NCBI GenBank assembly: GCA_947499555.1 | Contig: CANMOU010000001.1 | Span: 1,054,001 to 1,118,000, forward strand | DNA length: 64,000 nt | Source of the DNA: an uncultured Roseovarius sp. | GTDB taxonomy: Bacteria > Pseudomonadota > Alphaproteobacteria > Rhodobacterales > Rhodobacteraceae | Direction: 5' to 3' | The notes under the pieces: generated by a model | The model's input: only the letters and a program-made list of their open reading frames with translations | Databases searched by the model: none | What the model was told of the DNA's origin: nothing | In this document: piece after piece, positions 35,418 through 44,215 of the stretch | How positions within the stretch are numbered: the stretch's first letter is position 1 | Layout of the letters: each line of letters begins with the position of its first letter | Program-made: the position numbers and the translations under genes

Positions 35418-35921
35418 TCAGCCCTCGCCAGGTGGATCGATCAGCGTGAGCGGATCGAAGTCGTCCGGGTGGCCCTCGAGCCAAGCTTCGGTTTCTGCCG
35501 CCTCGATCTCTTCATAAGTGGCCGCATTCCAAATCTCGAAATAGTCGCCCATGGCGACCATGACAGCCTCGCCTTCCAGCCCGATTTGCTGACGCAGGCG
35601 CTGAGGCAGAACGATCCGGCCATCCTTGTCCACTTCCGTATCCCAGGACTTGCCAAGGATCATGCGGCTGGCCTGCTTGCGTTCAGAAGATCCGCGCGGC
35701 AGGCTCTTGATGCCCGCCTCGATCTCGGCCATCGCCTCAATCGTATAGGCGTGAAGGCAATTCTTGAGATGCGGGCCGTGTAGAACCACCAGACGTGGAA
35801 GCGGAATTTCGGGACAGCGCGGGTCGCCATCGGCCAGCACAGCGCGAAAATCGGCAGGGATCGACATCCGACCCTTGCCGTCAACCTTTTGGTTGAACTC
35901 GCCTCTGAAGCTCAGCGTCAC
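35418..35921 (-). CDS. mraZ: Transcriptional regulator MraZ
   Basis: 167 residues from a GTG at 35921 (GAGGGG and AGG upstream); the frame continues upstream through the leader RNA and its terminator, so the longer version is unlikely. Two AbrB-like half-domains each contain the MraZ signature: KVDGKGRMSIPADFRAVL near residue 12 and EVDKDGRIVLPQRLRQQIG near residue 100. MraZ is a DNA-binding ring-shaped protein that regulates its own dcw operon. It is the first gene of the cluster, preceded by a leader of about 260 bases with a terminator and two promoter candidates. Confidence 0.93.
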   Translation of the reverse strand: MTLSFRGEFNQKVDGKGRMSIPADFRAVLADGDPRCPEIPLPRLVVLHGPHLKNCLHAYTIEAMAEIEAGIKSLPRGSSERKQASRMILGKSWDTEVDKDGRIVLPQRLRQQIGLEGEAVMVAMGDYFEIWNAATYEEIEAAETEAWLEGHPDDFDPLTLIDPPGEG

Positions 35922-35972
35922 TGCGCGCCTGCCCCTCTTGTTCTGCCCCCGTGTTTCAATTTTTTGACCCCT

Positions 35973-36018
35973 AGAAACGAAACGACGGATTGAGCTGCTG
36001 CCACTGCCCAATCCGCCG
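35973..36018 (-). terminator. Intrinsic terminator in the mraZ leader
   Basis: On the minus strand CGGCGGATTGGGC (36018-36006) pairs with GCTCAATCCGTCG (35995-35983): 13 pairs including two G-U, around a 10-base loop, followed by TTTCGTTTCT. It lies about 50 bases before the mraZ start and about 165 bases after the proposed promoter, so it would terminate part of the dcw transcription. A smaller CCCGC/GCGGG hairpin sits just upstream (36026-36038). Confidence 0.75.
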
Positions 36019-36181
36019 CCCTCGTCCCGCTTTGCGGGGTGTCCAGCTGCGCGCGCCACCTGGGGGGATGTCTGCTCGCCCGCGCGCCGGATCTCTCGTT
36101 TTGATGAAGCGGGTGCCTGTATGAAACCTGACTTGGGTGTTTCGGGGTTCTTGTCGCCCCTATTTGCCCGTCCTCATCGTG
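35973..36181 (-). ncRNA. Candidate UpsM-like small RNA from the mraZ 5' leader
   Basis: The distance from the expected start (about 36181) to the end of the terminator U-run (35973) is about 209 nt. In Rhodobacter sphaeroides the abundant sRNA UpsM, about 206 nt, is made by early termination in the 5' leader of mraZ and is then cut by RNase E in an StsR-dependent way. Position, orientation, length and the final terminator match; I could not compare the primary sequence. Inference from architecture and established knowledge. Confidence 0.6.
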
Positions 36182-36187
36182 GAGTCA

Positions 36188-36215
36188 GTAATACATGGTA
36201 CTTCGTGGAACTCAA
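36188..36215 (-). promoter_or_regulatory. Candidate promoter of the dcw leader
   Basis: -35 TTGAGT (36215-36210), 16-base spacer, -10 TATTAC (36193-36188) preceded by TG (extended -10). The predicted start is near 36181. Confidence 0.5.
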
Positions 36216-36267
36216 TAAAAATTTACTCCTGACTGCCACAGAATATGGTTTTTGATGGCCTAGAAAA

Positions 36268-36346
36268 ACAATATATTGTGGAGGAGCAACGTCAAAATAC
36301 ACATCTTTTAGTTCCTAATAAAGTTTTTTGCACAATATGTTGTGCA
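36268..36346. promoter_or_regulatory. Two related palindromes with a second promoter upstream of dcw
   Basis: ACAATATATTGT (36268-36279) and TGCACAATATGTTGTGCA (36329-36346) share the core CAATATRTTG; their centres are 64 bases apart. A second promoter candidate on the minus strand, -35 TTGACG (36295-36290), spacer 16, -10 TATTGT (36273-36268), overlaps the first palindrome. The core resembles the NrdR box (consensus ACACWATATATWGTGT), but no ribonucleotide reductase gene is near. Confidence 0.5.
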
Positions 36347-36579
36347 TAATTTCATTTCCTGCCTTTTCCCATATTTTCCCGAATATTTCTTTCAGATTGC
36401 CTTCGGGAATGAGATCAAAACAAGAACATCAGCAAAACACAGCCTGAGATTCCGCAAACAGGTGCTGTGATTCGACTCAAATCAGGATAATTTCCATGAA
36501 ATCCCGCAAGCACACGCACCAGGTGCCAAAAAGCCCCAGCAGAGCTGCTCTAATATGTCGAAATGGAGAATAAGGCGCG
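36347..36579. other. AT-rich intergenic remainder, nothing recognised
   Basis: Between the palindromes and the end of the GNAT gene. The stretch is AT-rich with runs such as CATATTTTCCCGAATATTTC; no open frame with a ribosome-binding site, hairpin with T-run, or RNA gene was seen. Confidence 0.5.
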
Positions 36580-37074
36580 TTAGAGCGCCTTGAACATCAC
36601 CAATGCATCCACCAGCCCCTGCTCAGGATGCCGAAAGGCGCGCGGCAACCGCCCCACGGTCTCAAAGCCCAGCTTGGTCCAGAGCGCAATCGCCCCCATA
36701 TTGCTGGCGACCACAAAATTGAACTGCATGGCCTTATAGCCCAAATCACGCGCCGCTGTCTGGCTATGAACACACATCGCCCGGGCAATCCCCTGCCCCT
36801 GTGCGGCCGGTGCTGTGATGTAACCGCAGTTGCAGACATGGCTGCCGCCGCCCTGCTGGTTCGTCTTGATGTAGTAGGTGCCGAGGATCTCGCCATTCCG
36901 CTCGGCCACATAACTTGCTGCAGGCGCCTCGCACCAAAGCGTCAGCAATTCTTCCCGAGAGATATCCGGATCGATCGCATATGTATCCCCCGGCCGGATT
37001 ACATCGCGCAGAATTGGCCAGAGCGCGGCATGGTCATCTTCACGCACTGGCCGAATGATCAAGTCATCACGCAT
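36580..37074 (-). CDS. GNAT-family N-acetyltransferase
   Basis: 164 residues: MRDDLIIRPVREDDHAALWPILRDVIRPGDTYAIDPDISREEL, then ILGTYYIKTNQQGGGSHVCNCGYITAPAAQGQGIARAMCVHSQTAARDLGYKAMQFNFVVASNMGAIALWTKLGFETVGRLPRAF. The segment AAQGQGIARAM is the acetyl-CoA pyrophosphate loop (Q/RxxGxG/A) and ALWTKLGF the closing motif. The acceptor cannot be predicted. Its start overlaps the end of acuI by 8 bases, making it the last gene of the dmdA run, which is the only clue to function. Confidence 0.9.
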   Translation of the reverse strand: MRDDLIIRPVREDDHAALWPILRDVIRPGDTYAIDPDISREELLTLWCEAPAASYVAERNGEILGTYYIKTNQQGGGSHVCNCGYITAPAAQGQGIARAMCVHSQTAARDLGYKAMQFNFVVASNMGAIALWTKLGFETVGRLPRAFRHPEQGLVDALVMFKAL

Positions 37075-38053
37075 TCACATCCACGACCACGCGGCCTTTG
37101 ACCTGTCCTTTGAGGATGTCCGCGCCCAGTTTCGGCAAGTCACCCAGCGTCGCAGGCTGGATCATCGCTTCAAGCTTGTCCATGGGCAGGTCCTTGGCAA
37201 TCCGCTCCCATGCGCGCAGGCGGTTCTCATAAGGCTGCATGACGCTGTCGATGCCCAAGAGATTTACACCGCGCAACAGGAATGGAATGACCGTGGCAGG
37301 CAGCCCCGCGCCCCCAGCCAGACCGACGGCAGCCACGCTCGCGCCGTACTTCATCTGCCCCAGCACACGGGCCAGCATCTCGCCCCCCACGGCGTCCACG
37401 CAGCCGTCCCATGTTTCGGCCTCTAGCGGACGTTTCGTGGTCTCATTGATCTCTTCACGCGCCACGATCTGCGTGGCCCCCAGGCTTTTTAGGTAATCCG
37501 CCGTCTCGGGCCGTCCGGTCACGCCCGCCACTTCATGACCCAGATTGGCCAGAATGGCCGTGGCCACAGAGCCGACGCCGCCAGCCGCACCGGTCACAAG
37601 CACAGGTCCGTCCTTGATCCCATGATCCTCAAGCGCCATCACCGCCAGCATCGCCGTGAATCCCGCCGTGCCCACGGCCATCGCCTGACGTGTATCCAGA
37701 CCATTGGGAAGTGGCACCAGCCAATCGGCGTTAACCCGCGCCTTTTGCCCATGGCCACCCCAATGCACCTCACCCACGCGCCAGCCGGTCAAGACCACCT
37801 TGTCACCAGACTTGTAACGGTCATCCTCCGACGCCTCGACTGTGCCAGCAAAATCAATACCCGGCACATGCGGATAGCTGCGCACCAACCCGCCACCCGG
37901 TCCAATGCAAAGGCCGTCCTTGTAGTTCACCGTCGAGTACTCAACAGCGACAGTCACATTGCCCTCAGGCAAATCCGCGTCACTGATGCCCTTGACCGCG
38001 GCAGAGGTCTTGCCGCTCTCTTCGTCCTTCTCAACAACCAATGCGTTGAACAT
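37067..38053 (-). CDS. acuI: Acrylyl-CoA reductase (NADPH) AcuI
   Basis: 328 residues from the ATG at 38053 (GGAG six bases upstream). Zinc-free medium-chain dehydrogenase: MFNALVVEKDEESGKTSAAVKGISDADLPEGNVTVAVEYSTVNYKDGLC, PGIDFAGTVEAS, VVLTGWRVGEVHWGGHGQKARV, the nucleotide loop VTGAAGGVGSVATAILANLGHEVAGVTGR, and WDGCVDAVGGEMLARVL. Close to YhdH/AcuI enzymes that reduce acryloyl-CoA to propionyl-CoA with NADPH. Acryloyl-CoA is toxic and arises from DMSP cleavage; roseobacters commonly have acuI directly after dmdA, as here (58-base gap). No terminator lies in the gap. The DMSP role is inferred from this neighbourhood; the fold alone says quinone-oxidoreductase-like. Confidence 0.9.
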   Translation of the reverse strand: MFNALVVEKDEESGKTSAAVKGISDADLPEGNVTVAVEYSTVNYKDGLCIGPGGGLVRSYPHVPGIDFAGTVEASEDDRYKSGDKVVLTGWRVGEVHWGGHGQKARVNADWLVPLPNGLDTRQAMAVGTAGFTAMLAVMALEDHGIKDGPVLVTGAAGGVGSVATAILANLGHEVAGVTGRPETADYLKSLGATQIVAREEINETTKRPLEAETWDGCVDAVGGEMLARVLGQMKYGASVAAVGLAGGAGLPATVIPFLLRGVNLLGIDSVMQPYENRLRAWERIAKDLPMDKLEAMIQPATLGDLPKLGADILKGQVKGRVVVDVNA

Positions 38054-38111
38054 TTCGCTCTCCATCCTGTTCCTGCAGAGCCACGCCCTGCTTTCATCGT
38101 TCAATAAATAA

Positions 38112-39215
38112 TCAGATCCAGAAACACCGGTTCACCGTGGCGCGACGCGTGCCATCCGGGGTCTCGACGTCCAAAACCGTCTCCGGTGTCCAATGGGTCA
38201 TCCGGATCATGCCGATGGCCACGTTGGTGTCGAAATCCGGGCTCCACGCCGCAGAACTCACTCGGCCCACCACAGTGCCTTCAGACGTCACCGGCCACCA
38301 CCGGTCGCAGCCCGGCACGGGTGGACCGTCAATGGAAATCGCCCGGATTTCCTGCACCGGGCCTTCCTTGGCCACACGCAATAGCGCGTCGCGGCCGATA
38401 CAGCCAATTGCGCTATGGGTATTGCAAAACTTGCCCAACCCGCATTCATGCGGCGTGTTGTCGTCAGTCATGTCATTGCCATAGCTGAGCAAACCACCCT
38501 CGATCCGCTCAATGAGGTTCGGACATCCGGCATGCACATCGAGATCTTTGCCCGCCTCCATCAGCGCGTTCCAGAGCGGCATGCCAATATCGCCGCCTTC
38601 GACGTAAATCTCAAAACCACCCTGCTTGGAATAACCTGAACGTGCGATCACCAGGTCGCGACCCTGAAAATCGAATACGCCAAAGCGGAAAAAGCGAATG
38701 TCACGCACGCCGTCGCCAAAGACCCGCGACAGAAGCTCATCGGACTTTGGTCCCTGAATGGCCAGAGGGGACACATCCGGCTCATCCACCAGGACGTCCA
38801 GCCGCCAGCCATGTGCAATCGCCTTGACCCAGTAGAGCAGGTCGCTGTCGGCAATGGAAATCCACCAGCGATCTTCGGCCAGTTTCACCGCCACCGGATC
38901 GTTCAACATACCCCCGGTCTCGTCAACGATTGGCACATAAAAACACTGCCCCGCATTCATGCCGCGCAGATCACGTGGGGTCAGCATCTGCATAAGGCGT
39001 CCAGCATCCGGGCCACGCAGTTCGACTTGCCGCTCAACGGCCACATCCCAGACCTGCACGGCTTCTTTGAGATGACGGTAGTCTTCTTCGACCGAACGGA
39101 ACATGGTCGGCAAGAGCATGTGGTTATAGACGGTGTAGGCCTTAACCCCTGCCGCTTCGACACCATCGGAGAAGGGTGTGCGACGCAGGCGCCGCGAAGG
39201 AGACAAAAGCGCCAT
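38112..39215 (-). CDS. dmdA: Dimethylsulfoniopropionate demethylase DmdA
   Basis: 367 residues, starting MALLSPSRRLRRTPFSDGVEAAGVKAYTVYNHMLLPTMF, the characteristic DmdA N-terminus, followed by EDYRHLKEAVQVWDVAVERQVELRGPDAGRLMQMLTPRDLRGM, SPLAIQGPKSDELLSRVFGDGVRDIRFFRFGVFDFQGRDLVIARSGYSKQGGFEIYVEGGD and ERIEGGLLSYGNDMTDDNTPHECGLGKFC. It belongs to the glycine-cleavage T-protein fold but is distinct from GcvT. DmdA transfers a methyl group from DMSP to tetrahydrofolate, giving methylmercaptopropionate and 5-methyl-THF, the first step of DMSP demethylation in the cytoplasm. The start codon overlaps the stop of the small zinc-ribbon gene by one base (TGATG). Confidence 0.95.
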   Translation of the reverse strand: MALLSPSRRLRRTPFSDGVEAAGVKAYTVYNHMLLPTMFRSVEEDYRHLKEAVQVWDVAVERQVELRGPDAGRLMQMLTPRDLRGMNAGQCFYVPIVDETGGMLNDPVAVKLAEDRWWISIADSDLLYWVKAIAHGWRLDVLVDEPDVSPLAIQGPKSDELLSRVFGDGVRDIRFFRFGVFDFQGRDLVIARSGYSKQGGFEIYVEGGDIGMPLWNALMEAGKDLDVHAGCPNLIERIEGGLLSYGNDMTDDNTPHECGLGKFCNTHSAIGCIGRDALLRVAKEGPVQEIRAISIDGPPVPGCDRWWPVTSEGTVVGRVSSAAWSPDFDTNVAIGMIRMTHWTPETVLDVETPDGTRRATVNRCFWI

Positions 39216-39469
39216 CAGCTTTTTCCTCGCAAGTTACGTTTACAATTGGTTGGTGCTTTGCCTGTGGTCGAATAGGCAGCTATCCCGCAAATGGCACAGC
39301 GATATTCAACGAAGCGCCCATTCTGATCGCCGGACTTTGCCCATTTGCAATCGCGTTTGCGAAAGACCTGATCAAGCATTCCCGCAACGGCATTGCCAGC
39401 CCTCTGTCGGCCCCACGCCCACCAGACGAAGCCGATCACCGCAAGCGCTATGACAAGGGCCAATGGCAT
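39215..39469 (-). CDS. Small membrane-anchored zinc-ribbon protein coupled to dmdA
   Basis: 84 residues from the ATG at 39469. One N-terminal membrane helix (MPLALVIALAVIGFVWWAW), a short basic linker, then a putative Cys4 zinc ribbon: C in RKRDCKWAKS, the pair CAIC in YRCAICGIAAYS, and C in APTNCKRNL. Its stop overlaps the dmdA start (TGATG) and it begins one base after the DinB stop, so it is translated within the same transcript. No family name came to mind. A membrane-tethered ribbon could act as an adaptor or a metal or redox sensor; this is inference. It could easily be missed in automatic annotation because of its size. Confidence 0.7.
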   Translation of the reverse strand: MPLALVIALAVIGFVWWAWGRQRAGNAVAGMLDQVFRKRDCKWAKSGDQNGRFVEYRCAICGIAAYSTTGKAPTNCKRNLRGKS

Positions 39470-39470
39470 C

Positions 39471-39980
39471 TCAGAAGCTCTCGGGCATGAGAAAAAGATC
39501 ACTGACCGGTGCTGTGAGCCCAGCCGCAGTCAAAAGCGCATGGACCTGCCCGCGGTGGTGTGTCTGATGGTTGAACATATGGGAAATACAAAGACCGATC
39601 GGCTTTGACACCGTCCGGCCCGCTGCACCGGAATACCACGTCAATTCCCCCGTCAGATCAACGCTCCGCAGCGAGTTGGCCCAATGGCGGATTTTACCAT
39701 CGAGATGAAACCGTGTCGCACTCCATGCGCCAAGCGTCGGCGTCAGCATCGGGCTCTCTGATATTCCGCCATTGGGAGCCACAACGGAAGGGTCAAACCG
39801 GCTCATCCAGATCTGGTCGCCCCATAGCAGATGATTGAGCGTACCCAGGATCGAGCCAAAAAACGCACCACGATCCTTGGTCAAAACCGTCATTGGCTGA
39901 CCATCCAGCGCATCGAAAATCTGACGATTTTGCCAGGCCCCGTAGCGCGCCATCATATGACAATACTCAGGCGTGATCAT
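39471..39980 (-). CDS. DinB-family protein
   Basis: 169 residues. The four-helix DinB fold is suggested by MMARYGAWQNRQIFDALDG, FFGSILGTLNHLLWGDQIWMSRF, and the C-terminal HMFNHQTHHRGQVHALL. The three metal-binding histidines are visible: His in TLNHLLWGD and two in HMFNHQTHHRGQ. DinB-superfamily proteins include metal-dependent, thiol-using transferases (glutathione, mycothiol or bacillithiol S-transferases and maleylpyruvate isomerases). Substrate unknown here. It starts 9 bases after the DUF1326 gene and ends next to the zinc-ribbon gene, so it sits inside the dmdA run. Confidence 0.88.
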   Translation of the reverse strand: MITPEYCHMMARYGAWQNRQIFDALDGQPMTVLTKDRGAFFGSILGTLNHLLWGDQIWMSRFDPSVVAPNGGISESPMLTPTLGAWSATRFHLDGKIRHWANSLRSVDLTGELTWYSGAAGRTVSKPIGLCISHMFNHQTHHRGQVHALLTAAGLTAPVSDLFLMPESF

Positions 39981-39989
39981 TTGCGCGGC

Positions 39990-40697
39990 CTACGGTTTCG
40001 GGCCTTTCCAGTCAATCGGACAAATTTCGGCTGACTTGCCGCCAAAATCCCAGATGCGACCGAAATCGCGCACTTTGGATTTTGTACCGCGCGCCGCGAT
40101 GATGTCTGGGCCCATCCAGTATTTGGAATTGGAGATCATGACCGGATGATCCTCGCTTGCGCCATCGATCATCTCGATCTCGCCCTGGATCTTACGGCCA
40201 ATGTAAAGCCCGCGCTTTTTGCCCTCGCGCACGATCTCGACCTTTTCGCGTTCTGCGCCGACGATGTCACTTACGAGCATGGTGAAAAGCCCGGTTGTGC
40301 CGCCTGCGGCACCAGAGAAAATCTGCAGCAGACCGTTATACGCCTTGCCGCTTGCGCGTTCATCCACATAGGCCGCAACCTTCCAGCCGCCTTCGGCCAT
40401 ACGGCCGGGAATCTCCACCATCAGACCCACATTCAATCCCGAAAGGTCTTCACCTTCGAAATGACCCTCATCGATGGCAATTGCCATCCAGGCGTTGCAA
40501 TGCCCCTCGGTCGGCGGGTGCTGACCCAGGCTCACCACGCACGGGCAGAAAACAGTGCAGGAGCAGTTCAGGAAAAGCTCTCCCTTGATGGCCCATTCCG
40601 TAGGGTTGATCTTGCGCCGCTTGGGGTTGGCCATACGGTTATCGATGCGCTGTGAGACCGGCAGTTTGTCGGCGTTCTGACGACGTTTCAAGGCCAT
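39990..40697 (-). CDS. DUF1326 domain protein
   Basis: 235 residues from the ATG at 40697, with GGGAGGA seven bases upstream lying inside the end of the DUF2182 gene. The DUF1326 signature is WAIKGELFLNCSCTVFCPCVVSLGQHPPTEGHC, a cysteine-rich N-terminal block, followed by AWMAIAIDEGHFEGEDLSGLNVGLM and later GGTTGLFTMLVSDIVGAEREKVEI. No signal peptide. Function unknown; the CSC...CPC cysteines suggest metal binding. DUF1326 genes are frequently next to DUF2182 membrane proteins, as here, and the two may form a complex. Confidence 0.88.
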   Translation of the reverse strand: MALKRRQNADKLPVSQRIDNRMANPKRRKINPTEWAIKGELFLNCSCTVFCPCVVSLGQHPPTEGHCNAWMAIAIDEGHFEGEDLSGLNVGLMVEIPGRMAEGGWKVAAYVDERASGKAYNGLLQIFSGAAGGTTGLFTMLVSDIVGAEREKVEIVREGKKRGLYIGRKIQGEIEMIDGASEDHPVMISNSKYWMGPDIIAARGTKSKVRDFGRIWDFGGKSAEICPIDWKGPKP

Positions 40698-40701
40698 GTT
40701 T

Positions 40702-41493
40702 CTATCCTCCCATAACCAGCGGCGCGGCCAGAACGGCCAGACCGCTTGCGATCAAGATCCCACCCATCGGCCGGATCACGCGATGACCGATCTGTGGCAA
40801 TTTTTCCAACACCATGAACAATGTGGCAAGCCCCATCCACAAAAGGCTCATGACGCCGCCAACAAATCCAAGCGTCATGAAACCCCAGCAGCAACCGACG
40901 CAAAACGCGCCCATGCCGAGCCCCATCCGGATGCCGCCACCAAAGCCTGTGCGCCAATGGCCCAGGAAATAGCTCATCGGGCTGTGGCACACGCCATGGC
41001 AGACCTCTTTGGCGCGGGTGAACTGAAACGCACCCACGGCGATGAGCAAACCACCTGCGATCCACGGTGAGGTGGCGATCCCCAGCAAGTCAATCGCCCC
41101 ACTGAAAAGAAGCCCAAGCTGCACGCTTGTGATGAGGGCGGCAAACCCGACCCAGACCAGGAAATAGCCAAGCAAAACACCGAACCATCCCGCCCGGGTG
41201 GCATCAGCGCTTTGCATAAGATCTTCATAGGCACGCAGCGTCGGCACCATTGTCGGCAGCATCATCGCCGCCATCATCACCGCCCACATCGCAAAAAGCG
41301 GGCCAAACTGCGTCATCGGCATACCCACGGCCGCGCGCGGATCTATCTGGCGCATTTTCTCGGCCATGGCACCGGGACGACCAATCAGATCCAGCCCCAT
41401 GCCCATCGCCATCATGTAAAGCCATATCCAGGCCAGCAGAATGCAGCCAAAAAAGCTCAGCCATGCAATGGAACGCATCGGAAAAGCGGTCAT
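40702..41493 (-). CDS. DUF2182 integral membrane protein
   Basis: 263 residues with about seven membrane segments. Starts with SIAWLSFFGCILLAWIWLYMMAMGMG; contains the DUF2182 hallmark FAMWAVMMAAMMLPTMVPTL (methionine-rich helix), CHGVCHSPMSYFLGHWRTGFGGGIRMGLGMGAFCVGCCWGFMTLGFVGGVMSLLWM, and MVLEKLPQIGHRV. The Met-rich helices and Cys/His clusters (CHGVCH, CVGCCW) suggest a membrane metal-binding, perhaps copper-related, function; none is demonstrated. It is the first gene after the divergent GntR regulator and ends 4 bases before DUF1326. Confidence 0.88.
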   Translation of the reverse strand: MTAFPMRSIAWLSFFGCILLAWIWLYMMAMGMGLDLIGRPGAMAEKMRQIDPRAAVGMPMTQFGPLFAMWAVMMAAMMLPTMVPTLRAYEDLMQSADATRAGWFGVLLGYFLVWVGFAALITSVQLGLLFSGAIDLLGIATSPWIAGGLLIAVGAFQFTRAKEVCHGVCHSPMSYFLGHWRTGFGGGIRMGLGMGAFCVGCCWGFMTLGFVGGVMSLLWMGLATLFMVLEKLPQIGHRVIRPMGGILIASGLAVLAAPLVMGG

Positions 41494-41507
41494 GGGTGCG
41501 CAAGCCC

Positions 41508-41536
41508 TTGGATTGAGTCGCGAATGGCGATATAAA
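41508..41536 (+). promoter_or_regulatory. Candidate promoter of the GntR regulator gene
   Basis: -35 TTGGAT (41508-41513), 17-base spacer, -10 TATAAA (41531-41536). The predicted start near 41543 falls inside the palindromic operator. On the opposite strand, TTGTCA (41561-41556) and TTTATA (41536-41531) could serve the DUF2182-dmdA run with a longer, 19-base spacer. Confidence 0.55.
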
Positions 41537-41560
41537 TGTCAGACATTTAAAGGTCTGACA
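41537..41560. promoter_or_regulatory. Perfect palindromic operator between gntR and the dmdA run
   Basis: TGTCAGAC (41537-41544), an 8-base spacer, then GTCTGACA (41553-41560): eight of eight bases mirrored. It directly follows the -10 box of the regulator, covers its likely transcription start and ribosome-binding site (AAAGG at 41549-41553), and reaches to one base before its ATG. Such placement is typical for an autorepressing GntR/FadR protein that also controls the divergent genes. Confidence 0.7.
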
Positions 41561-41561
41561 A

Positions 41562-42311
41562 ATGAAATCTGCCTCCGAGCCAAAACCAGATAGCAAACCG
41601 CAGGACCTCTCGGCCCAGATCGCGCAGGCCATTCGCGATGCCATTGTCGAAGGCCGTATGATCGTGGATGAGCGCCTGCCCTCCGAGGCCGAACTCTCAG
41701 AACAGTTTGGCGTCTCAAGGTCCACTGTGCGCGAAGCCTTGAAACGACTGGCCGCGCAGTCCCTCATCCGCACCCAGCGCGGTGCTTTTGGCGGCGCTTT
41801 TGTCAATAAGCTGAGCTACGAGGACGCCTACAGCCAGCACATCACAACCTCGACGCTTCTGCTGTCAATGAACGCCGTCAGCTTCGAGACCGCCTGTGAG
41901 GCGCGCTATGCATTGGAACGCGCCTGTGCGCCTCTTGCCTGCGAACGCCGGACGCCGGATCACCTGGCCACGATGCGCGCCGAGATCCATCGCCAGTCGC
42001 AACCCGGTCTGAGCGATGAAAGCTTTTGCGCCTCCGATGTCGCGCTGCACCGTGCCCTTGTGGACGCCGCCGGCAACCCGGTTCTGAGCTACCAACTGGC
42101 TGGGGCGGTCGAGGCCATGCAACCGCTGATGAACATGATTACCTTCACAGCGCGCTCCCGTGAGGAAATTGTTGGCCTGCACACTGAACTGGCCGATGCA
42201 CTTGAAGGCGAAACGCCCGTTCTGGCAGAAGCGGCGCTGCATAAGTTGGAAGCCTACACGCTCACACTGGGCCAGGATGTCATGGCCGCGCGCGCCCGAA
42301 AATCAAGCTGA
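41562..42311 (+). CDS. GntR-family regulator, FadR subfamily
   Basis: 249 residues. N-terminal winged helix (about 14-82): LSAQIAQAIRDAIVEGRMIVDERLPSEAELSEQFGVSRSTVREALKRLAAQSLIRTQRGAFGG, with the GntR signature LPSEAELSEQFGVSRSTVREAL. The C-terminal FCD domain is all-helical (about 95-235) and includes ASDVALHRALVDAAGNPVL and MMIHTEL-like HTELADAL, with Asp/His residues (DVALH and LHTEL) that usually hold a metal and an organic acid ligand. It would bind the palindrome in front of its own gene and respond to a carboxylate such as a DMSP-derived acid; the ligand is inferred from context. It diverges from the seven-gene dmdA run. Confidence 0.9.
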   Translation: MKSASEPKPDSKPQDLSAQIAQAIRDAIVEGRMIVDERLPSEAELSEQFGVSRSTVREALKRLAAQSLIRTQRGAFGGAFVNKLSYEDAYSQHITTSTLLLSMNAVSFETACEARYALERACAPLACERRTPDHLATMRAEIHRQSQPGLSDESFCASDVALHRALVDAAGNPVLSYQLAGAVEAMQPLMNMITFTARSREEIVGLHTELADALEGETPVLAEAALHKLEAYTLTLGQDVMAARARKSS

Positions 42312-42331: not shown

Positions 42332-43261
42332 CTATACGTCGTCCGGCAAGCTGCCACCGCACCCGTTGCGGAATTCCGTCGGGCTCACACCGGTGCTGCG
42401 CTCAAAGGTCCGGCTAAAGGCTGTGCGGCTGGAAAAACCAACCTGATGTGCGATGCTCTTGATCGGTAAATCACTCTGGCGCAGCAATACCCCGGCCCGC
42501 TGCACCCGCAAATCGCGCAAAAGCTCTATCGGCCCGTGTCCTAAGACGTCTCCAAAGCGTTGCGCGAAACTCGACCGGCTCATCCCTGATAGGGCCGCCA
42601 AACTTTCAACCGTATGAGGCGCGCCGGGATCATCCAGCATGACGCGCAGGCTGGCCCATAGCGCGGGATCCTGAAGCACGCTCATCCATCCCACACCCGC
42701 ACCCTGGCGCTTAAATTGTCGCCGCAGCAACTCAATCATGCATTGCGTCAGCAACGCCCGGATCATCGCGCGGCTTCCCAAACCGGGCGCGCTCAGCTCT
42801 TGCAGCAGCGCCCGAAGTACTGGTGCCAACGCCTGCCCGTCGTGAATGGTTTCGCTTAGGGGCGTCCGGATCAGATCGATGATGTCATCTGCGCCGCGTA
42901 GACCGACCCGAACATGTGCACAAAGCGCAGTAACCTGTGCCTTGGCTTCCGTGCCGGGCTGCGTTTTCAACAAGCGACGCAGTTGAAGCTCCGCAGGTCT
43001 GCAATCGGGTGTCGGATGCGTTGTTTCACCAACGCTGCGCAGAGTGTGGCGATGCATTCCCGGGATCAGAATGAGCGACCCCTTCTGTACCGGAATATCT
43101 GATCTTCCGGGCAAAACGATCTCTCCACGCCCCGAAAGGATGTAATGCAGCGTGGCTCCTGTATCCTGCCCCAGACCAAGATCACACCTCCCGCGTAACT
43201 CGCAAACTGCGAAAGGGTCGGGGAAAATATCAATCCGGTCGAGCAACTCATCATAGTTCAT
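42332..43261 (-). CDS. AraC-family transcriptional regulator
   Basis: 309 residues from the ATG at 43261 (MNYDELLDRIDIFPDPFAVCELRG); the frame upstream runs through the intergenic repeats. The N-terminal part is a cupin of the AraC_E/cupin_6 type: TLHYILSGRGEIVLPGRSDIPVQKGSLILIPGMHRHTL. The C-terminal 100 residues form the double helix-turn-helix (PHTVESLAALSGMSRSSFAQRFGDVLGHGPIELLRDLRVQRAGVLLRQSDLPIKSIAHQVGFSSRTAFSRTFERSTGVSPTEFR). It diverges from the Tat-exported cysteine hydrolase gene and probably regulates it through the direct repeats in the gap. The effector is unknown. Confidence 0.92.
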   Translation of the reverse strand: MNYDELLDRIDIFPDPFAVCELRGRCDLGLGQDTGATLHYILSGRGEIVLPGRSDIPVQKGSLILIPGMHRHTLRSVGETTHPTPDCRPAELQLRRLLKTQPGTEAKAQVTALCAHVRVGLRGADDIIDLIRTPLSETIHDGQALAPVLRALLQELSAPGLGSRAMIRALLTQCMIELLRRQFKRQGAGVGWMSVLQDPALWASLRVMLDDPGAPHTVESLAALSGMSRSSFAQRFGDVLGHGPIELLRDLRVQRAGVLLRQSDLPIKSIAHQVGFSSRTAFSRTFERSTGVSPTEFRNGCGGSLPDDV

Positions 43262-43282
43262 ACAGTATCTGACACGCTTTCT

Positions 43283-43341
43283 GGACGAAAAGATACGAAT
43301 AAAAGACTTTTGTTGCGAAAACCGGACGCAAAGATACGCAT
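43283..43341. promoter_or_regulatory. Pair of 18-base direct repeats between araC-type gene and hydrolase
   Basis: GGACGAAAAGATACGAAT (43283-43300) and GGACGCAAAGATACGCAT (43324-43341) match at 16 of 18 positions and start 41 bases apart, close to four helical turns. Directly repeated sites on one face of the helix are typical AraC-type operators. Confidence 0.6.
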
Positions 43342-43387
43342 ATATCTCCATCTTTTGTTTTGCACCTAACTGTATGGAGGTTTTCAG

Positions 43388-44215
43388 ATGTGCAGAGAAC
43401 ATGACCACGAAGAGCACGGCCCAAAGATATCGCGCCGCACGGCGCTTACCGGCGTCGCTGCGGCCACAGCGGCAGGCGCAGCGACCGCCCTGTCATCGCC
43501 AGCCGCGGCGCAATCGAACCCTTACGCTGATCCAGCCGAACCCGCACTGCCCCCGTCTGATATGAAGCTCGATTTAAGTCGTACAGCCCTGGTTGTGACC
43601 GACCCGCAGATTGATTTCCTCCATCCCGACGGCGTGACCTGGGGTGTGATCGGAGCCAGCGTGACCGAACACAACACGGTGGAGAACATTGAAACGCTCT
43701 TCAAGGCGGCCAAGGCGGCCGAGATCACGGTCGCCGTATCTCCGCATTATTACTACCCGACGGATAAAGGCTGGAAATTCGAGGGGGCGCTGGAGAAGCT
43801 GATGCACAAGATCGGCATGTTTGATCGGACTGGTCCGACCAATCTTGACGGCTTCGAAGGATCCGGCGCGGATTTCATGCCGCAATACAAGCCTTACATC
43901 GAAGACGGCAAAACCATCGTAACCTCGCCACATAAGGTCTATGGCAACGACACCAACGACCTGACACTGCAATTGCGCAAGAACAAAGTCGATCAAGTGA
44001 TCCTTGCAGGCATGTCCGCCAACCTCTGCACGGAAAGCCACATGCGTGAATTGCTCGAAGATGGATTCGAGGTGGCCGTTGTGCGCGATGCCACCGCAGC
44101 AGCCATGCTGCCCGAAGGTGACGGATATCTCGCCGCCCTGACCAATTTCCGCTACATGGCTAATGCAGTCTGGAGCACGGAAGAGGCGGTAGAGCACATA
44201 AAGAGTGCCGCATAA
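43388..44215 (+). CDS. Tat-exported isochorismatase-family cysteine hydrolase
   Basis: 275 residues from the ATG at 43388, with GGAGG seven bases upstream. A twin-arginine signal peptide (ISRRTALTGVAAATAAGAATALSSPAAAQ) directs it, folded, to the periplasm. The mature enzyme is an isochorismatase-like hydrolase: catalytic Asp in VVTDPQIDFLHPDGVTW and the nucleophilic Cys in AGMSANLCTESHMRELLEDGFEVAVVRDATAAA. Members hydrolyse amides such as nicotinamide, N-carbamoyl amino acids or biuret, or C-C ester-like bonds; this one's substrate is not predictable. Tat export is not common in this family. Divergent from an AraC regulator and followed by a convergent hairpin. Confidence 0.88.
   Translation: MCREHDHEEHGPKISRRTALTGVAAATAAGAATALSSPAAAQSNPYADPAEPALPPSDMKLDLSRTALVVTDPQIDFLHPDGVTWGVIGASVTEHNTVENIETLFKAAKAAEITVAVSPHYYYPTDKGWKFEGALEKLMHKIGMFDRTGPTNLDGFEGSGADFMPQYKPYIEDGKTIVTSPHKVYGNDTNDLTLQLRKNKVDQVILAGMSANLCTESHMRELLEDGFEVAVVRDATAAAMLPEGDGYLAALTNFRYMANAVWSTEEAVEHIKSAA

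Follow-up and report, generated by a model that had tools for sequence, protein, structure and literature searches.

The question raised by the locus described here is which task unites a set of genes around the dimethylsulfoniopropionate (DMSP) demethylase gene dmdA. The locus lies in a 64,000 bp stretch of DNA from an uncultured Roseovarius sp. (assembly GCA_947499555.1, contig CANMOU010000001.1, positions 1,054,001 to 1,118,000), hereafter called the window. It comprises a run of seven minus-strand genes, including dmdA and the acrylyl-CoA reductase gene acuI, and a divergent gene for a GntR/FCD-family regulator. A first-pass annotation regarded the run as a seven-gene DMSP demethylation operon. 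Our preferred reading, which is tentative and to which we give a little less than an even chance, is that of a protective operon responding to acrylate or acryloyl-coenzyme A (acryloyl-CoA). The proteins PpoB2 (formerly DUF2182) and DUF1326 would handle copper and thiols beside AcuI, and the run would not be a demethylation operon as such.

Conservation was assessed in 394 genomes of the same family as the window's (Rhodobacteraceae), nearly all from different genera. dmdA above the cut-off was found in 169 of them, DUF1326 in 209 and the methanethiol oxidase gene mtoX in 136; all co-occurrence counts are given without kinship correction. Among the dmdA loci of other genomes, the 60 with the highest scores were analysed, most of them with flanks of about 6 kb; acuI was found in 58, the GntR gene in 55 and the DinB gene in 35. 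The PpoB2-DUF1326 pair was present in 54, and there dmdA and acuI, much-studied genes of the ocean sulfur cycle, stand behind two or three conserved genes. Neither the small cysteine-rich open reading frame (ORF) nor the GNAT gene was found in any of the 60. The 80 named loci closest to the window's DUF1326, some cut by contig ends, feature PpoB2 in 80, acuI in 76, dmdA in 75, GntR in 73, DinB in 65, GNAT in 7 and the small ORF in 2. The closest DUF1326 among these named loci is that of Roseovarius aestuariivivens (94%). At genome level, DUF1326 occurs in 144 of 169 genomes with dmdA, compared to 65 of 225 without it. Conservation is strong for PpoB2, DUF1326, dmdA, acuI and GntR and moderate for DinB, while the 84-aa ORF and the GNAT gene are confined to some close kin and are local additions. 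Based on these locus counts, the regulator and four genes form a common unit to which DinB is a variable addition, and two genes of the seven are local. Conservation of the gene order in relatives, the absence of which would have refuted the first-pass annotation, was found for the core, but not for the 'zinc-ribbon' ORF and the GNAT gene.

The core follows acuI and not dmdA. We analysed 40 loci from the 65 genomes that have DUF1326 but lack dmdA. PpoB2 precedes DUF1326 as in the window in 33 of these; 27 of the 33 loci also contain acuI, in 23 cases no more than 650 bases from DUF1326, and the same GntR as in the window is present in 10. In the remaining seven loci, the order is reversed and the DUF1326 versions are distant; neither acuI nor a GntR above 50% identity was found there. 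In L048 and L246, acuI and the GntR gene are divergent beside the pair. One genome with dmdA has a PpoB2-DUF1326-DinB-acuI unit 55 kb away from it (L228), and in 15 dmdA loci selected for missing DUF1326, acuI was kept in 8. A match to PF16867, the DMSP-lyase cupin, was found in 16 of 27 dmdA-less genomes with the unit, compared to 14 of 53 without DUF1326 (p = 0.007). The linkage of a core centred on acuI, the regulator and the PpoB2-DUF1326 pair, with dmdA as an optional passenger, is well supported, and a seven-gene demethylation operon is not in line with it.

Four of the dmdA-less loci (L035, L038, L041, L233) feature a DmdA-like match of 40–44% identity near the pair. In L038 (5038-10393), genes for an acyl-CoA ligase, the DmdA-like protein, PpoB2, DUF1326 and AcuI form a tight run. 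The DmdA-like gene of this locus reaches 368 bits, which is under the cut-off of 410, and the protein of such loci may demethylate another methylated compound.

The regulator of the window features a GntR helix-turn-helix and an FCD domain and is adjacent to a putative operator of the GT-NNN-AC type, which is the operator motif of GntR/FadR (FCD) regulators. This operator is the perfect palindrome TGTCAGAC-8-GTCTGACA, already noticed in the first-pass annotation and now found to be conserved as a tandem site in relatives. It is the sole match in the window's 3.7 Mb genome when up to 3 mismatches are allowed. In 147 GntR-adjacent upstream regions, the strict tandem site with a distance of 15 bases was observed in 77 and, written as GTNNNAC, in 97; among spacings of GTNNNAC pairs from 8 to 29, none other than 15 exceeded 2. 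Random windows of the same loci contain the tandem site in 109 of 20,000 cases. By locus type, loci with both dmdA and the pair have the strict site in 66 of 125 cases, those with dmdA but without the pair in 4 of 8 and dmdA-less loci bearing the GntR gene in 4 of 10. A search of 40 other genomes with at most one mismatch yielded the operator in 23, in every one at this promoter. Two further sites were found in all, one each in two genomes: a weaker match within an ORF and, in the other genome of the same genus (L272:5493-6725), a second perfect copy directly ahead of a gene for an acyl-CoA dehydrogenase. Judged from these searches, the regulator looks local, with nearly one target. In the alignment of 147 regulators, C156, D159, H163 and H207 are present in all rows and C122 in 143. 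The unusual invariant C156, which is near D159 and H163 in sequence, is a possible electrophile sensor.

The coordinates of the run and its regulator are given in Table 1. The tight arrangement of seven genes described in the first-pass annotation was found again: from 41493 down to 36580, 4 bases separate PpoB2 from DUF1326, 9 lie between DUF1326 and DinB and 1 between DinB and the small ORF. The small ORF and dmdA share 1 base, 58 bases follow before acuI, and acuI and GNAT share 8. All gaps but one are thus no longer than 9 bases, and the value of 58 between dmdA and acuI holds only if acuI begins at MFNALVV, which corresponds to residue 1 of the solved AcuI 5gxf. A consensus scan yielded no terminator-like site in this gap. 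In all, 7 terminator-like sites (6.1 expected) and 4 promoter-like sites (2.4 expected, two of the four inside dmdA) were obtained, numbers that say little on transcription either way.

Table 1 Features of the gene run, its putative operator and the regulator gene (positions in the window)
Feature	Position	Strand	Remarks
GntR/FCD-family regulator gene	41562..42311	+	divergent from run; Pfam GntR 69.4 bits, FCD 70.3 bits
Putative operator, two GTCWGAC sites 15 bases apart, perfect 8+8 palindrome	41537..41560	.	43 bases before PpoB2 gene
PpoB2 (PF09948, formerly DUF2182), predicted membrane copper chaperone	40702..41493	-	206.8 bits vs cut-off 28.7
DUF1326 (PF07040), five invariant cysteines	39990..40697	-	168 vs cut-off 25
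DinB-family protein (PF05163), optional member	39471..39980	-	66.7 bits vs cut-off 23
84-aa Cys-rich ORF, hydrophobic start (our reading), local addition	39215..39469	-	family-less
dmdA, DMSP demethylase, optional unit member	38112..39215	-	NF009133 681 bits vs cut-off 410
acuI, acrylyl-CoA reductase	37067..38053	-	full-length match to 5gxf; TIGR02823 above cut-off
GNAT acetyltransferase, local addition	36580..37074	-	Acetyltransf_1 54.7 bits

Family searches confirmed the gene families named at first pass, except for the 84-aa ORF called 'zinc-ribbon', which matched no family in Pfam or NCBIfam. The window's DmdA is well above the cut-off of the NCBIfam equivalog model, a family assignment from which tetrahydrofolate-dependent demethylation of DMSP is predicted, and aligns with 374 bits to the structure 3tfh, presumably the DmdA of Pelagibacter. 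The window's AcuI matches 5gxf with 624 bits over residues 1-328 of 328 and reaches 440.7 bits with the subfamily model TIGR02823 (cut-off 297). It falls short of the cut-off of 440 of the equivalog model NF051456 (418.8 bits), but was named AcuI because of the full-length match to the solved protein.

By our reading of the ORFs, the end of the run adjoins mraZ and cell-division (dcw) genes (35418-36580); a MraZ match was found in 7 of the 80 loci closest in DUF1326. Beyond the GntR gene (42332-44215), genes for a cupin-AraC regulator and, divergent from it, an isochorismatase-family hydrolase are located, with overlapping ORFs. We read the start of the hydrolase as similar to a twin-arginine translocation (Tat) signal.

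The PpoB2 protein is above the PF09948 cut-off, and M73, M78, C169, C198, C201 and C202 are invariant in a 52-row alignment. Its predicted structure is helical, with a predicted local distance difference test (pLDDT) value of 92.5. Such conserved methionines and cysteines, soft-metal ligands in a helical protein, together with the studied family member, make it a predicted membrane copper chaperone. The metal link suggested at first pass for the DUF2182 protein is upheld, since the family is now PpoB2 in Pfam and annotated as 'copper chaperone' (PMC2855505). DUF1326, the other member of the pair seen as metal-related at first pass, has conserved cysteines. Likewise, the DinB assignment stands with the PF05163 match and conserved histidines: H50 is present in 117 of 117 rows and H138 and H142 in 113 of 117 each. 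A histidine triad is typical for the DinB/YfiT superfamily.

DUF1326 features five invariant cysteines and a predicted barrel resembling acetoacetate decarboxylase (ADC). A Schiff-base lysine is a feature of the ADC-like superfamily; no lysine of the window's protein is conserved above 60% in 54 rows or at 97% in 147 rows of the unit. Compared to superfamily members (PDB 3bh2, 4jmd, 5upb), DUF1326 has the same predicted barrel at 8 to 12% identity, but instead of a conserved lysine it has the five cysteines. In a tree of 54 DUF1326 proteins, those of the unit type group in a single branch together with three kin that share this gene order (Shimodaira-Hasegawa-like approximate likelihood ratio test, SH-aLRT, 99). 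The family is also present in other proteobacteria. Two loci (L223:341-2529 and L226) carry DUF1326-PpoB2-DUF1326 triples, with two DUF1326 genes flanking one PpoB2 gene.

One alternative is that DUF1326 is itself a metalloenzyme, the substrate of which would be acrylate, acryloyl-CoA or another C3 acid from the breakdown of DMSP, with PpoB2 as its dedicated metal loader, in analogy to Marinomonas PpoB2 and tyrosinase. We consider this unlikely, even if it is the best of the alternatives. ADC-type Schiff-base chemistry is improbable given the missing lysine, no match to an enzyme was found for DUF1326 at sequence level, and a common fold shows no function.

In the preferred reading of an acrylate-responsive protective operon, the GntR/FCD regulator would bind the tandem GTCWGAC operator and repress both its own gene and the run. 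A signal derived from acrylate, either acrylate itself or its CoA ester, would relieve this repression. AcuI would then reduce the thiol-attacking acryloyl-CoA, while PpoB2, in the membrane, would chaperone Cu(I) by a methionine/cysteine path. The metal partner of PpoB2 would most likely be DUF1326, probably a cytosolic protein that combines the ADC fold and a cysteine cluster. The pair may balance copper and thiols while acryloyl groups deplete the thiols by which Cu(I) is normally buffered. DinB would be an optional helper of the metal/thiol type, and dmdA, where present, would steer DMSP away from acrylate production.

Several observations weigh against this interpretation. The pair is dispensable, as it is missing in 6 of 60 dmdA loci, and DUF1326 is missing in 25 of 169 dmdA genomes. 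About half of the 147 GntR-adjacent regions lack the strict site at 15 bases, and 14 regions with two strict sites have a distance of 32 to 35 bases between them instead. No PF16867 match was found in 11 of the 27 genomes with a dmdA-less, acuI-bearing unit, and for 17 of these 27 units the locus has no GntR that exceeds 50% identity. The assignment of copper leans on one distant studied member of the PpoB2 family, and zinc or another soft metal may be the cargo instead. Kinship may have inflated the counts. Outside Rhodobacteraceae (30 loci, 26 genomes), PpoB2 was found in 25 loci and true acuI in none; because the pair there is mostly a two-gene unit without acuI, acrylate is not its general role.

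The last two points also favour a generic metal-homeostasis cassette that came to lie behind a regulated promoter by chance and spread by inheritance, without a tie to acrylate or DMSP. This alternative is improbable in our view. On the AcuI tree of 95 loci, for which the minimum numbers of state changes are 16 for dmdA, 13 for DUF1326 and 26 for DinB, the pair stays beside acuI across at least 16 changes of dmdA, although sampling was biased to mixed states and most branches are weakly supported. The unit was also found in several gene orders, including the divergent ones of L048 and L246, and in many genera.

The thiol-stress reading of the first-pass annotation, in which the pair feeds copper to the methanethiol oxidase MtoX or protects from methanethiol, draws on the copper dependence of MtoX (PMC5739008). 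The window's genome has two mtoX. At least four genomes have mtoX and dmdA no more than about 6 kb apart (G066:C1:189548-192088; G345:C1:233839-237421; G043:C11:639633-644846; G240:C14:36084-44438), one of them with mtoX 72 bases after dmdA. Among dmdA-less genomes, mtoX is associated with DUF1326 (17 of 65 vs 18 of 160, p = 0.008), which blurs the separation of the two readings. Among the 169 dmdA genomes, however, no significant association was found (89 of 144 vs 12 of 25, p = 0.27, the second group being small), and mtoX is missing in 55 of the 144 with DUF1326. As mtoX does not track DUF1326 there, a role in methanethiol metabolism is weakened. In Ruegeria pomeroyi, DMSP raised the expression of dmdA-acuI fusions about 10 fold and acrylate about 14 fold, methylmercaptopropionate did not induce them, and AcuI confers acrylate resistance (PMC3338564). 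With many genomes giving mtoX its own SCO1 chaperone gene (PMC5739008) and the unit persisting without dmdA, we regard the methanethiol reading as quite improbable.

A bolder version of the acrylate reading is possible, if doubtful. The PpoB2-DUF1326 pair would be an unrecognised second arm of the bacterial acrylate response, in which DUF1326, as a new type of cysteine-cluster metalloprotein on an ADC-like scaffold, is loaded by PpoB2 and acts with AcuI against acryloyl-CoA, either as an enzyme or as a thiol/copper guard. The GntR regulator, sensing electrophiles by C156, would then tie copper handling to the switch between DMSP cleavage and demethylation. Should the preferred acrylate reading be true, acrylate detoxification in these bacteria would gain a metal/thiol arm with a defined operator and regulator, the function of DUF1326 would have its first handle, and the switch would become testable via one nearly single-site regulator.

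The linkage of dmdA and acuI is already published, while no description of the two or three conserved genes ahead of them was found in the open-access literature searched. No paper naming DUF1326, alone or with DUF2182, was found there, although these genes may be described elsewhere or be termed hypothetical. A search for dmdA together with DinB yielded a single off-topic paper on polymers, and COG5486/COG5588 only the Marinomonas review.

Among known systems, the window resembles the dmdA-acuI operon of R. pomeroyi (Todd et al. 2012, PMC3338564), which is widespread in Roseobacters, has acuI directly after dmdA and is induced by acrylate. The published promoter, by the cloning description, is just before dmdA, whereas the window has PpoB2, DUF1326, DinB and the small ORF ahead of dmdA and its unit also exists without dmdA. 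A PpoB2-family membrane protein in an operon is likewise known from ppoB1-ppoB2 of Marinomonas mediterranea, in which PpoB2 passes copper to tyrosinase (PMC2855505). In the window, the partner is DUF1326 instead, and the run has no tyrosinase gene. The mtoX-SCO1-mauG cluster (PMC5739008) also links a copper chaperone gene to DMSP sulfur metabolism, but with another chaperone family, in another place and with an IclR regulator in R. pomeroyi, and it is not co-distributed with PpoB2-DUF1326 among dmdA genomes. In the TetR-regulated acuI system with a DMSP lyase gene, control of acuI is acrylate-responsive, as proposed here, while the window features GntR, PpoB2, DUF1326 and dmdA instead.

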